Of a stretch of 44,639 bases of DNA, positions 936-8,507 are shown one piece after another. The notes beneath the pieces were generated by a model, which was not told the origin of the DNA, searched no databases, and worked only from the letters and a program-made list of their open reading frames with translations. Position numbers and translations under genes: made by a program. How positions within the stretch are numbered: position 1 is the stretch's first letter; every line of letters begins with the position of its first letter. Origin of the DNA: an uncultured bacterium (GTDB lineage Bacteria; Planctomycetota; Phycisphaerae; Phycisphaerales; SM1A02); contig CAITDI010000110.1 of assembly GCA_903891095.1 (NCBI GenBank), positions 1-44,639 on the forward strand. Reading direction: 5' to 3'.

Positions 936-3900
936 TCACTTGTTCGGAAACAGTTCCTGCAGCGGCTTCACGCGCCACGCGCCTGCGCGCATCGCCTGCA
1001 GCGCCGACACCGCGGCGCGGGCGCCGGTGAGCGTCGTGATGAGCGGCACGCGGTAGGTGATCGCTGCGGCTCGCCACGCGCCTTCGTCGTGGCGGCTGCC
1101 GGTGTAGAGCGGCGTGTTGATCATCAACCCGAGCTTGCCCTGGCGGATGAGGTCGAGCAGGAACGGCGCGCGCTCGTTCGGCGACTTCGACACGAGGTGC
1201 GACGGCACGCCTTCGGCGGCGAGCGCGGCGCGCGTGCCCGAGGTCGCGTGGATCGTGAAGCCCATCGCGACCAGCGCGCGGCCGATCGCGCCGATGTACG
1301 GCTTGTCGGAGTCGTTGACGCTCACGAGGACGCTGCCTGAGGTCGGGAGCGTTCCGCCCGTCGCCATCTGGCTCTTGGCGAACGCGAGGCCGAACGACGA
1401 GTCGATGCCCATCACCTCGCCGGTCGAGCGCATCTCGGGTCCGAGGATGGCGTCGACGCCGCGCATCTTGTTGAACGGGAAGACCGACGCCTTGACCGAG
1501 ACGCTGCGCGGCGCGGGGATTTCCTCGAGCTTGAGCTCGCGCATCACGCTGTCGAGCGGCTGCCCGAGCATGACGCGCGTCGCGATGCGCGCCCACGGCA
1601 CGCCCGTCGCCTTCGACACGAACGGCACGGTGCGGCTCGCGCGCGGGTTGACCTCGAGCACGTAGATCTGGTTGTCCTTGATCGCGTACTGCACGTTCAT
1701 CAGGCCGCAGAGGCCGACGCGGCGCGCGAGTCGCACGGTCCAGTCCTTGAGCTCGTCGATCATCGCGGGCGAGAGCGAGTACGGCGGCAGCGCGCACGAG
1801 CTGTCGCCCGAGTGGATGCCTGCCTCCTCGATGTGCTCCATCACGCCGCAGATGATGCAGCTCGCGCCCGGCGCGCCCGGCACGCGCGCCTGCCCGAAGT
1901 CGGCGACGCAGTCGACGTCGACCTCGGTGGCGTTCTTGAGGAACTTGTCGACGAGGATCGGGTTGTCGCGGCCGTCGATGCCGAGGCGATCGGTCGCGGC
2001 GAGCGCCTGGATCATGAAGCGCTCGACGTCGGCCTCGACCGCGCAGATCTCCATGCCGCGGCCGCCGAGCACGTAGCTCGGGCGAAGGAGCACGGGATAG
2101 CCGAGCTCGCCCGCGATGGACTTCGCGCCCTTGAGGTCGAACGCGATGCCGTTGGCGGGCTGCCGCAGCTCGAGCTCGCGGATGATTCCGCCGAACGCCT
2201 CGCGGTCGGCGGCGAGATCGATGTTTGACGGCGTGGTGCCGACGATCGGCGTGCCCGCGCGCTCGAGCCCCTGCGCGAGGTTGAGCGGCGTCTGTCCGCC
2301 GAGCTGCACGACGACGCCCGCGACGCCGCGCTCGCCGAAGCGGCCGAGGCGCTCGACGACGTTGAGCACGTCCTCGAGCGTGAGCGGCTCGAAGAAGAGC
2401 ATGTCGCTCGTGTCGTAGTCGGTCGACACGGTCTCGGGGTTCGAGTTCATCATCACGCTCTCGAAGCCCGCGTCGCTGCACGCGAAGCTGGCCTGGCAGC
2501 AGCAGTAGTCGAACTCGATGCCCTGGCCGATGCGGTTCGGACCGCCGCCGAGGATGAGGACCTTGGGCTTGCTTCCTGCGCGGATCTCGTCGTCGACCGA
2601 CATCGTGCCGTCGGCGGAGCGATGCGCGTTCTCGTAGGTCGAGTAGTAGTAGGGCGTGCTCGCCTCGAACTCCGCCGCGCAGGTGTCGACCATCTTGTAG
2701 ACGGGCTCGATGCCGAGCGCCTTGCGGTGCTTGCGGACGCGGAGGATCGACGCGGTCGTGATCTCGCCGAGATAGAGCTGCGCGAGCTGCGGGTCGGAGT
2801 AGCCGAGCTGCTTGGCGCGGGCGAGGAGTTCCGGCGGAACATCCTCGAGGCGCGCGTGGGCGCAGAGCTCGTCCTCGAACGAACAGAGGCTCTCGATCTG
2901 CGCCAAGAACCACGGATCGATGCGCGTGAGCTCGTGGATGCGCGCGGCGGACCAGCCGAGCTTGAACGCGTAGCGCACGAAGTACAGGCGGTCCTGGTTC
3001 GGCACCTTGAGCTTGGTCTCGAGCTTCGACTCCTCGATCGGCCATTCGGCGGGGATCACGCCCGCGACGGGGCCGCGCGCGGCCTGCTGGCGCGCGAGCA
3101 GCCACTGGTCCTTCGCGTCGAGGCCGAGGCCGAAGCGCTTCATCTCCATCGAGCGGATCGCCTTCTGCAGGCTCTCGCGGAAGGTGCGGCCGATGCTCAT
3201 CGCCTCGCCGACCGACTTCATCTGCGTGGTGAGCGTCTCGTCGGCGTCGGGGAACTTCTCGAACGTCCAGCGCGGCATCTTGACCACGACGTAGTCGATC
3301 GAAGGCTCGAAGCACGCGCTCGTCGTGCCCGTGATGTCGTTCGGGAGCTCGTCGAGCGTGTAGCCGACGGCGAGCTTGGCGGCGATCTTCGCGATCGGAT
3401 AGCCGGTCGCCTTCGATGCGAGCGCGGAGCTGCGCGAGACGCGCGGGTTCATCTCGACGACGATCATGTCGCCGTTGGCGGGATTGACCGCGAACTGCAC
3501 GTTGGAGCCGCCGGTCTCGACGCCGACCGCGCGCAGGATCGCGATCGCCGCGTCGCGCATGCGCTGGTACTCCTTGTCGCTCAGCGTCATGATCGGCGCG
3601 ACGGTGATCGAGTCGCCCGTGTGCACGCCCATGGCGTCGATGTTCTCGATGCCGCAGACGATGATGCAGTTGTCCTTGCGGTCGCGGATGACCTCGAGCT
3701 CGTATTCCTTCCAGCCGAGCAGCGACTCGTCGATGAGCACCTGGCTGTTCATCGAGGCGTCGAGGCCGCGGCGCACGATCGACTCGAACTCCTCGCGCGA
3801 GTACGCGATGCCGCCGCCGGTGCCGCCGAGCGTGAACGCGGGGCGGATGATCGCGGGCAGCCCGAGCCTGTCGAGGATCGCCCACGCCTCGTCCATCGTG

Positions 3901-4364
3901 TTCGCGGTCGCGCAGCGCGCGGTGCGCAGGCCGATCCGCTCGACGAGCTGCTTGAACTGCTCGCGGTCCTCGGCGCGGTAGATCGCGTCGCGCTGCGCGC
4001 CGATCATCTTGATGCCGTGGCGCTCGAGCACGCCGTCGTCGACGAGCTGGCACGCGAGGTTGAGCGCGGTCTGGCCGCCCATCGTCGGGAGGATCGCGTC
4101 GATCGGATGCGGGCCCGCGGCCTCGGCCTCGATGATCTTGGTCACGGCCTCGACGGTGATCGGCTCGATGTAGGTGCGGTCCGCGTACTGCGGATCGGTC
4201 ATGATCGTCGCGGGATTCGAGTTCACGAGGACGACGCGGTAGCCTTCGGCCCGCAGCGCCTTGCACGCCTGCGTGCCCGAGTAGTCGAACTCGCAGCCCT
4301 GGCCGATGACGATCGGTCCGGAACCAACGATGAGGATCGTGCTGAGGTCGGTGCGGCGTGGCAT
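936..4364 (-). CDS. carB: Carbamoyl-phosphate synthase large subunit
   Basis: 1142 residues. It makes carbamoyl phosphate from bicarbonate, glutamine-derived ammonia and two ATP, for pyrimidine and arginine synthesis. The two homologous synthetase halves are clear: the N-terminal half opens with [17 protein letters not shown] and the C-terminal half with [18 protein letters not shown]. Each is followed by an ATP-grasp domain ([20 protein letters not shown] and [20 protein letters not shown]). A C-terminal MGS-like regulatory domain contains [14 protein letters not shown]. It is about 70 residues longer than the E. coli enzyme, with the extra length mainly around the central linker. carA is not in the window. 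It starts 29 bp after the stop of the deacetylase gene on the same strand, so it may be transcribed with the carbamoyltransferase cluster, which uses its product. Confidence 0.98.
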
Positions 4365-4393
4365 GGTGGTTCGCTGACGGAAACGGGGTGAAA

Positions 4394-7494: not shown

Positions 7495-7508
7495 GGTGGT
7501 GGTCCGTT

Positions 7509-8507
7509 TCAGATTTCTGGCAGCAGTCGTGCGATCGTCGGCGCAAGGGACTTTGCGATGGCCGCGTGGCCTTCGCGCGTCGGGTGGATGTCGATCGGGA
7601 ACCTGAACTTGCGTCGATCTTCGGACGAGTAGTTTCGGAGATCAGGCAGGGGATCGTGAACCGTGCAGCCAAGATCTTTCCCAACTTCGGAAAACCTTTT
7701 CTGGTAGGCCTTGGCGCTGCTGGTGCCCTCGACGTGCTGATAAAGCGGGATCGGCATGATCACGATCGGCTTGGCGTAGGCCTTGGTCTCGGCCTGCGTC
7801 CACTCGGTCAGAATGGCTCGCATGAGCTGCCACGCGGGATTGCTGGCCGAGCCGTATTCGGGCACGGGCTGGTAGCCGGTGACCTTCTGCACGATCTCCT
7901 TGAGGCCCGCGCGGTTGATGAGCTTGCGGATGGTCTCGAAGCGCCCGCCGCGGTCGACGGCGGCGCGTTCCTCGGGGGGCAGCGAGTCTTCGGCGATCGG
8001 GCGACGCTCCGGCGGCGAGTGATGCAGCGCGAGCGCGCCGTTGACCAGCGTGAAATACGGCTTGGCGAAGACGACTTCCTGGCCTTGGTCGTTCTGGTAG
8101 CGGCGAAAGCGCGAGGCGATGCGGCGGATGTTCTCGACGAGCACGGCGATCACGAGCACGTCGTGGTCGATGCCCTGCGCGAAGTCCTTCCACGCGAGGT
8201 ACTGCTGGTCGGTGCCTGAGCCGGGGAGTCCGAAGTTGTAGACCTCGGTCGAGGGCAGCAGCGTCTCGAGCACCTCGCTGTAGCGGTGACCGTTGGACAC
8301 GCCGTCGCCCGCCGTGAACGAATCGCCGAAGAGCAGCACGCGGCGCTTGCCCGGCGTGCGCGCCTTGCTGAACTCATGGTCGCAGCGGAAACCGTCGCTG
8401 TTGGCGCGGATCAGGTAGCCGCCGCTCTCGTGCGGCACGCGGGCCTTGAGCCCGGGAATGAAGCGATACGCCGTGGAGGGGTGGTACTCGAAGCACTGGC
8501 GCGACAT
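7509..8507 (-). CDS. SGNH/GDSL-type hydrolase or O-acyltransferase-like protein
   Basis: 332 residues. The start is at the ATG 8505-8507, with AAGAGG about 10 nt upstream on the minus strand. The open frame continues upstream but its composition is unlike coding sequence. The block VLLFGDSFTAGDGV supplies the SGNH nucleophile (S63). Near the C-terminus IDIHPTREGH supplies the Asp-x-x-His part of the triad. There is no clear signal peptide. Such proteins remove or move acyl groups on polysaccharides, and many occur beside NodU-type carbamoyltransferases. It is the first gene of the presumed glycan operon, and the 243-bp gap before it probably holds the promoter. Confidence 0.85.
   Translation of the reverse strand: MSRQCFEYHPSTAYRFIPGLKARVPHESGGYLIRANSDGFRCDHEFSKARTPGKRRVLLFGDSFTAGDGVSNGHRYSEVLETLLPSTEVYNFGLPGSGTDQQYLAWKDFAQGIDHDVLVIAVLVENIRRIASRFRRYQNDQGQEVVFAKPYFTLVNGALALHHSPPERRPIAEDSLPPEERAAVDRGGRFETIRKLINRAGLKEIVQKVTGYQPVPEYGSASNPAWQLMRAILTEWTQAETKAYAKPIVIMPIPLYQHVEGTSSAKAYQKRFSEVGKDLGCTVHDPLPDLRNYSSEDRRKFRFPIDIHPTREGHAAIAKSLAPTIARLLPEI

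Follow-up and report, generated by a model that had tools for sequence, protein, structure and literature searches.

The window analysed here, contig C110 (GenBank CAITDI010000110.1, 44,639 nucleotides) of the 3.6 Mb genome of an uncultured planctomycete that, judged by its genes, stands near Phycisphaerales, carries at 936–8507 an operon that includes an O-carbamoyltransferase gene. Antibiotics, Nod factors and some lipopolysaccharides are known to bear O-carbamoyl groups; to our knowledge, little has been learned about how the carbamoyltransferase is held and supplied. Five genes lie on the minus strand in the order SGNH hydrolase, NodU-type O-carbamoyltransferase, a 119-aa protein, a NodB-fold protein and carB (carbamoyl-phosphate synthase large subunit). 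The intergenic gaps computed from their coordinates are 14, −14, 28 and 29 bp, the small-protein gene starting 14 bp before the carbamoyltransferase gene ends. This layout had been described in an earlier note made from the sequence alone, and was confirmed by open reading frames (ORFs), Pfam and NCBIfam. A congener (G013) contains the identical five genes in the identical order (identities of 79% for the SGNH hydrolase, 91% for the carbamoyltransferase, 76% for the small protein, 64% for the NodB-like protein and 86% for carB), so the arrangement in the window is not due to chance, and part of the order was also found in other phyla. The 119-aa protein, called unknown in the earlier note, is the signature part of a wider cassette.

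The survey of this cassette comprised 98 scored carbamoyltransferase loci: 12 from relatives, 80 listed by a scan of genome_contigs with the carbamoyltransferase alignment that returned at least 80 loci, and six others added for holding the cassette. All counts of rarity refer to this listing and to the genomes sampled. A homolog of the small protein was found near the carbamoyltransferase in 12 loci, comprising 6 of the 92 fetched by carbamoyltransferase similarity and 6/6 of those added; because the latter were chosen for holding the cassette, 12/98 is not a frequency. Every one of these 12 loci has an SGNH gene, four have a NodB-like gene and two have carB, and in none of them, window included, does an SxtJ or DUF5989 gene lie within 5 kb. 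Among the other 86 loci, SxtJ was present in 81, DUF5989 only in one and neither in four, leaving 82/86 with at least one of the two partners; the four loci with neither (L069, L150, L155 and L159) are contigs or stretches shorter than 9 kb. Some SGNH gene was found within 5 kb in 17 of these 86. The SxtJ and DUF5989 profiles behind these counts were widened on the same ORFs that were later counted; a check with Pfam confirmed DUF5989 (PF19451) in 3/3 cases and placed SxtJ (PF19588) above the cut-off in 2/3, the remaining one scoring below it.

The cassette of SGNH hydrolase, carbamoyltransferase and small protein extends to at least four phyla and, among the matches listed, stands together on Planctomycetota, deltaproteobacterial (Myxococcota), Magnetococcales and Caballeronia contigs. 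A Magnetococcales locus (L102) has SGNH, carbamoyltransferase, small protein and NodB-like genes ordered as in the window. In Methylobacterium the SGNH gene is placed after the carbamoyltransferase and small genes, and two Paraburkholderia plasmids carry SGNH, an extra gene, carbamoyltransferase and small protein. In a verrucomicrobial locus (L127), two proteins encoded in tandem (1111 and 1104 aa) each combine SGNH, carbamoyltransferase and small domain in a single chain. Among 61 genomes (the window genome and its relatives) the small protein was detected in two, the window genome and G013; among 301 of the order the count was again two. Searching with the small-protein profile alone recovered it in 3/392 genomes of the phylum (the window's own, the genome behind L098, and G420), in 2/399 of the order of Caballeronia (itself and G1032) and in 1/397 of the order of Methylobacterium (itself). 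Since these hits were obtained independently of the carbamoyltransferase, G420 and G1032 test the cassette link, and both have SGNH and carbamoyltransferase genes beside the small one, G420 with a NodB-like gene in addition. No paper describing the cassette, or carB paired with an O-carbamoyltransferase, turned up in the searches made of the open-access literature. By sequence comparison, the SGNH hydrolase, carbamoyltransferase and small protein are thus shown to form one recurring unit, to which a NodB-fold enzyme is added as a fourth part in some members and a foreign second carB (see below) in this lineage.

Some cassettes contain further genes. An extra gene precedes the SGNH gene in Caballeronia (L106, 7508–8752), with a weak amidohydrolase match below the cut-off, and one related to it by eye follows the SGNH gene in Paraburkholderia (L177, 10330–11745). 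In Methylobacterium sp. J-030 (L096, 12186–12731) a 181-aa protein of unknown kind is encoded between the small and SGNH genes.

The small protein matches no Pfam family up to an E value of 0.1. Its C-terminal tail in the window reads VSPFVYVMF, and all 13 small sequences from the 12 loci (two from L127) end in S-x-[FSDY]-[VIC]-Y-x-M-[FY]. The DUF5989 proteins of the other loci mostly end in A-P-F-I-Y-x-[LI]-F, with tyrosine at −4 in 70/71 and phenylalanine at −1 in 71/71; SxtJ proteins end otherwise, often in RQF or NQF. A relaxed pattern, [A/S]xF[V/I]Yx[M/L]F at the C-terminus, was matched by 70/73 DUF5989 proteins and 12/13 small ORFs and by none of the 11,646 remaining ORFs in these loci, a background made up of six-frame ORFs no shorter than 40 aa that are mostly not genes. 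In other respects the two families are unlike. Membrane-helix-like stretches are absent from the small proteins (best 19-residue hydropathy: median 0.69, range −0.19 to 1.30, n = 12) but present in DUF5989 (2.73, range 2.26 to 3.24, n = 73) and in SxtJ proteins. That two unlike proteins alternate next to one enzyme, with a likeness confined to their final residues, suggests that the shared tail is a docking peptide for the carbamoyltransferase. Some points weigh against this idea: the pattern was composed after the sequences had been seen, the small protein yields a weak fold model (pLDDT 67.5, best PDB match at E 5.1), and the model of the L127 fusion has a pLDDT below 50 at the tail, so that docking cannot be read from it. 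No paper naming DUF5989 turned up in the open-access searches.

The carbamoyltransferase itself is complete, with both halves of the family matched at full length (Carbam_trans_N, E 3.3e-97, 326.4 bits against a cut-off of 24; Carbam_trans_C, E 2.2e-72, 242.6 bits against 27) and with the HxxxH and GGVALN motifs present. Residues H129, H133, D152 and D335, which we take to correspond to the metal-site residues of TobZ (His-x3-His and Asp), are invariant in 13 aligned rows. The nearest solved structures are those of NovN (9s2t, E 1.2e-93) and GdmN (7vyj). In a tree of 64 carbamoyltransferases, for which 47 of the 80 genome_contigs loci were used, a single clade (SH-aLRT 98) unites 11 cassette rows; the L127 fusion branches just outside, and the 12 rows together have a support of only 23, a point against the reading of the locus favoured here. 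Outside the genus, the nearest carbamoyltransferase among those compared is that of G1032 (69%).

The SGNH protein carries the GDSFTAGDGVSN, GSGTDQ and DxH blocks of its family (Lipase_GDSL_2, E 4.7e-12, 47.2 bits against 32.9), represented by the GDS block GDSFTAGDG, block III GSGTDQ and the catalytic DxH pair in DIHPT. Its identity is 54% to the G1032 homolog and 48% to that of G420, besides the congener noted above. By hydropathy it has no signal peptide or membrane helix; more generally, none of the five window proteins exceeds 1.3 in 19-residue hydropathy within the first 60 residues, leaving no membrane-helix-like N-terminus among them, and the NodB-like protein has one borderline hydropathic stretch at residue 115 (1.72). 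The latter protein belongs to the CE4 fold (Polysacc_deac_1, E 1e-13, 51.8 bits against 23.1), scores below every NCBIfam cut-off, and keeps the metal triad, TFDD and HTMNH (HxxxH), aligned in four homologs; its gene occupies the same place in G013, in L102 and in the G420 locus (L190). Two features of these enzymes weigh against the roles proposed for them below. The NodB-like protein lacks motif 3 (RxPY) and the motif-5 histidine of CE4, as we take these motifs to be defined, the window protein having WVGGEExxYS and QRTNxE there instead, so that deacetylation by this protein is uncertain; and in the L096 SGNH protein the aspartate of the DxH block is unaligned.

The last gene of the operon contains CPSase_L_D2 (Pfam, E 9.4e-103) and scores at full length far above the cut-off of the NCBIfam carB equivalog (NF003671, 1548 bits vs 599). 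It is a second copy: the window genome has two full carB genes, that of the operon and one on contig C66, and G013 likewise has two, on C9 and C5. In both genomes acyltransferase and ruvA-type genes lie to one side of the ordinary carB and a nuoH-type gene to the other (names by eye). In a tree of 35 carBs (from 35 of 38 sources; G036, G003 and G034 were left out for want of a clean frame), the operon carBs cluster with that of a genome from another family (G060, SH-aLRT 99), away from the carBs of the genus. The operon copy is therefore of foreign type, and a recent duplication of the genus's own carB was rejected. The earlier note had linked carB to the carbamoyltransferase, and this link gains from the finding that the operon carB is a foreign second copy while the ordinary one stands elsewhere beside a nuoH-like gene; the idea of local donor supply is strengthened accordingly, within the two genomes of one genus that have the gene. 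The interval 4364–4394 between the NodB-like gene and carB, where a promoter and terminator would have parted the two, holds neither a promoter-like nor a terminator-like site. Over 500–9000 such sites are at shuffle level (one promoter-like against a shuffle mean of 0.6, two terminator-like against 3.7).

A passenger role for carB, as a gene of foreign origin that inserted downstream and has no functional connection, would fit its absence from 10/12 cassette loci, the lack of a carA alongside, and the greater divergence of the operon copies between the two genomes (86.0% identical) than of the ordinary ones (94.2%). The short distance to the NodB-like gene (29 bp in the window, 20 bp in G013), with no terminator-like site between them in the window, speaks for a functional tie, as does the retention in both operon carBs of all 13 positions (E. 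coli numbering) examined as active-site residues of the two ATP-grasp halves, which are identical to E. coli; we consider the passenger explanation improbable. The proposed donor supply meets obstacles of its own. Only one carA above the cut-off was found in the window genome, on contig C82, and none in the operon, so that the operon CarB must presumably share it or use ammonia. Both loci with carB belong to one genus, and six other cassette genomes searched have a single carB gene each; the expected conservation of gene order thus held for the five-gene order in G013 but not for carB across the cassettes, and carB was rejected as a general cassette part. Moreover, the operon CarB keeps six of the seven positions that we take to form the UMP/IMP site, and need not escape pyrimidine control; an enzyme free of feedback is unsupported. 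The seventh of these positions, T1017, is proline in 31/34 non-E. coli rows. A locus with carB divergent from an ordinary-kind carbamoyltransferase (L123) was not counted as a pairing case.

Another position of the operon CarB is altered. At E892, presumably part of the ornithine site of E. coli CarB, both operon copies have alanine, whereas glutamate is found in the two ordinary copies and in 30/34 non-E. coli rows; the position is also changed in G028 and OFTM49. This difference speaks against the idea that the extra CarB serves pyrimidine, and hence UDP-sugar, supply for polysaccharide synthesis instead of the carbamoyltransferase, although the ornithine site has to do with arginine-side control. 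The operon contains no pyrimidine gene, and in both genomes carB stands in the carbamoyltransferase operon. We regard this role as unlikely, though the retained UMP-site positions agree with it and, in Pseudomonas fluorescens, a carB mutation is reported to change capsule formation via pyrimidine pools (PMC4357382).

The features of the region are collected in Table 1. Both in the window and in G013 the operon lies between the 1317-aa gene and tRNA-Pro, with one gene separating it from the tRNA in the window and two others doing so in G013. Elsewhere in the genus this junction was found without the operon, tRNA-Pro following the 1317-aa gene within ~160 bp in G001 and G009 and within ~530 bp in G014. 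In G008, whose ordinary carB is the closest to that of the window genome (95.0%), a different gene follows the 1317-aa gene and the contig then ends; in the available flank of five other congeners (G004, G005, G006, G012 and G015) the tRNA was not found. The operon is therefore patchy within the genus, through gain or loss. About 1 kb past the 1317-aa gene and tRNA-Pro, G001 carries a carbamoyltransferase set of the ordinary kind, including SxtJ and DUF5989 (L067, 394–10110), and the same neighbourhood thus hosts the other kind of carbamoyltransferase system.

Table 1. Features of the operon region in the window (coordinates in the window).
Feature	Coordinates	Strand	Remarks
tRNA-Pro(CGG)	31..104	+	borders the region
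Short gene with weak PepSY similarity	615-926	+	21.0 bits, cut-off 24; between tRNA-Pro and the carB end
carB, second copy (carbamoyl-phosphate synthase large subunit)	936..4364	-	1142 aa
NodB-fold (CE4, Polysacc_deac_1) protein	4394..5272	-	292 aa
Small soluble partner protein	5301..5660	-	119 aa; lies in a longer frame reaching 5810
NodU/CmcH-type O-carbamoyltransferase	5647..7494	-	615 aa; both Pfam halves complete
SGNH/GDSL hydrolase	7509..8507	-	332 aa; lies in a longer frame reaching 8702
Flank gene upstream of the operon	8751..12704	-	1317 aa; present in 13/16 genomes of the genus
Upstream neighbourhood	8751-19783 (and L077)		resembles an operon of MoxR / von Willebrand factor A type (gene names by eye); also conserved in G013

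The tRNA-Pro end of the region is itself repeated. Two more copies of the 18-nt 3′ end of tRNA-Pro follow just downstream, one exact and one matching over 17 nt, and at 87–500 this end and the stretch downstream of it recur in units 197–199 nt apart (87–131 and 284–328, 98% alike; 139–301 and 338–500, 96% alike). The operon may be an island that integrated at the tRNA, yet no further copy of at least 12 nt of this end was found in 105–9000. The tandem duplication may stem from integration or from slippage; no integrase gene was noticed by eye, and no search aimed at integrases was made.

What the cassette acts on is best read from its surroundings in other genomes. In G420 the set of SGNH, carbamoyltransferase, small protein and NodB-like genes, without carB, is placed inside an exopolysaccharide cluster. 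It is flanked by Wzz/kinase-, CpsB_CapC- and Wzy_C-type genes and, on the opposite side, by genes of the oxidoreductase, heparinase II/III, CapD-like, glycosyltransferase and Wzy kinds, with a flippase gene further on. The L127 fusions neighbour cytidylyltransferase, UDP-GlcNAc 2-epimerase, heparinase and glycosyltransferase genes; in both of these polysaccharide-cluster cases the cassette is followed downstream by a heparinase II/III-like gene (L127, 12205–14037; L190, 12692–14662). In PGU19 a polysaccharide flippase gene is one gene away from the SGNH gene, and beyond its tRNA-Pro G013 has RmlD-like, Polysacc_synt_2 and glycosyltransferase genes. The only PF02397 sugar-phosphate transferase of the window genome is found on contig C61, accompanied by glycosyltransferase, nucleotidyltransferase (RmlA-like by eye) and Wzc-like genes (by eye; only the ATPase domain in Pfam). 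From the contexts in G420, L127, G013 and C61, a surface polysaccharide appears the likeliest acceptor. Three cassettes (L096, L098 and L106) have no glycan genes nearby by eye, which weighs against this assignment and would better suit a cassette that tailors a secreted small molecule, in the manner of antibiotic O-carbamoyltransferases. NovN and GdmN, the nearest solved relatives, are antibiotic enzymes, and a Pantoea antibiotic cluster includes an SGNH gene (pnp1B, likened by description) separated by a single gene from a NodU/CmcH gene (pnp1D; PMC4010436). Given the polysaccharide genes around the G420 and L127 cassettes and the flippase gene of PGU19, we judge a small-molecule product rather unlikely, if somewhat less so than either alternative for carB.

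The interpretation in the earlier note is thus supported in part. A surface glycan as substrate is plausible in view of the four-gene set of G420 within its Wzz/CpsB/Wzy/glycosyltransferase cluster, the proposal that the glycan is made elsewhere agrees with the C61 genes, and the tie to carB holds as described above. The analogy with Nod-factor synthesis, by contrast, does not stand: the carbamoyltransferase reaches 140.4 bits where the nodulation NodU equivalog of NCBIfam has a cut-off of 1000, and with CE4 motifs 3 and 5 absent from the NodB-like protein, membership in a Nod-factor-like pathway was rejected. NodC and NodA were not noticed near the operon, and the genome was not searched for them.

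Taken together, the patchily inherited gene set probably serves to carbamoylate a sugar polymer of the cell surface. We think it reasonably likely that the locus is a cytoplasmic cassette tailoring a surface polysaccharide, with CarB feeding the donor; its substrate, docking and supply are the parts that we infer. In such a scheme, CarB, together with the single CarA of the cell or with ammonia, would produce carbamoyl phosphate, and by adjoining the carbamoyltransferase would supply this unstable donor on the spot. The transferase would convert carbamoyl phosphate to carbamoyl-adenylate and carbamoylate a sugar hydroxyl on an intracellular glycan that is nascent or lipid-linked, following the established chemistry of the family, in which carbamoyl phosphate is split, carbamoyl-adenylate is formed and the carbamoyl group is moved to a hydroxyl (PMC6022934). 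On the same glycan, also in the cytoplasm, the SGNH enzyme would take off or move an acyl group and the NodB-fold enzyme would take off an N-acetyl group, each freeing or preparing acceptor positions. The small protein would grip the carbamoyltransferase through its C-terminal SxFVYxMF-type tail, the role that membrane-bound DUF5989, with its similar tail, would have in ordinary members, and the product would be exported as a surface polysaccharide by the genome's own EPS machinery. More tentatively, and with slightly less than an even chance in our estimate, O-carbamoyltransferases throughout the family may be held by a common docking tail, [A/S]xF[I/V]Yx[L/M]F, borne either by membrane DUF5989 or by the new soluble family, the choice of partner setting a membrane-tied form apart from a soluble assembly of SGNH hydrolase, deacetylase and CarB with private donor supply.

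The wider finding, at the level of sequence, is a cassette of SGNH hydrolase, carbamoyltransferase and small protein, with a new protein family whose tail is shared with DUF5989. It offers a compact set of parts, including a protein family outside Pfam, a natural three-part fusion and a short testable tail. DUF5989, a family of unknown function, would gain a testable role. The private carB would represent a tailoring pathway that owns its donor-making enzyme, of which the searches made returned no other case.

Among known systems, the PNP-1 cluster of Pantoea ananatis, compared by description, likewise has SGNH and carbamoyltransferase genes close together; it differs in being an antibiotic cluster with the long unknown pnp1C between them, and the accessible text describes no small protein or carB (PMC4010436). 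WapO, linked to carbamoylation of the lipopolysaccharide core of Pseudomonas, is a putative carbamoyltransferase acting, as proposed here, on a cell-surface glycan; the accessible text describes no such cassette or carB (PMC8005017; compared by description). The CmcH/NodU enzymes (TobZ, GdmN, NovN and rhizobial NodU) resemble the window enzyme in both Pfam halves, HxxxH and GGVALN, but the latter falls into a clade of its own with SGNH and small-protein partners and is no NodU equivalog. The sets of NodU, SxtJ and DUF5989 share with the cassette the enzyme family, small partner genes nearby and the similar C-terminal tail of DUF5989 and the small protein. In those sets both partners, SxtJ and DUF5989, are membrane-helix-like, whereas the small protein of the window is not, and the two kinds never occur together in the 98 loci, as if they were alternative partners of one enzyme.

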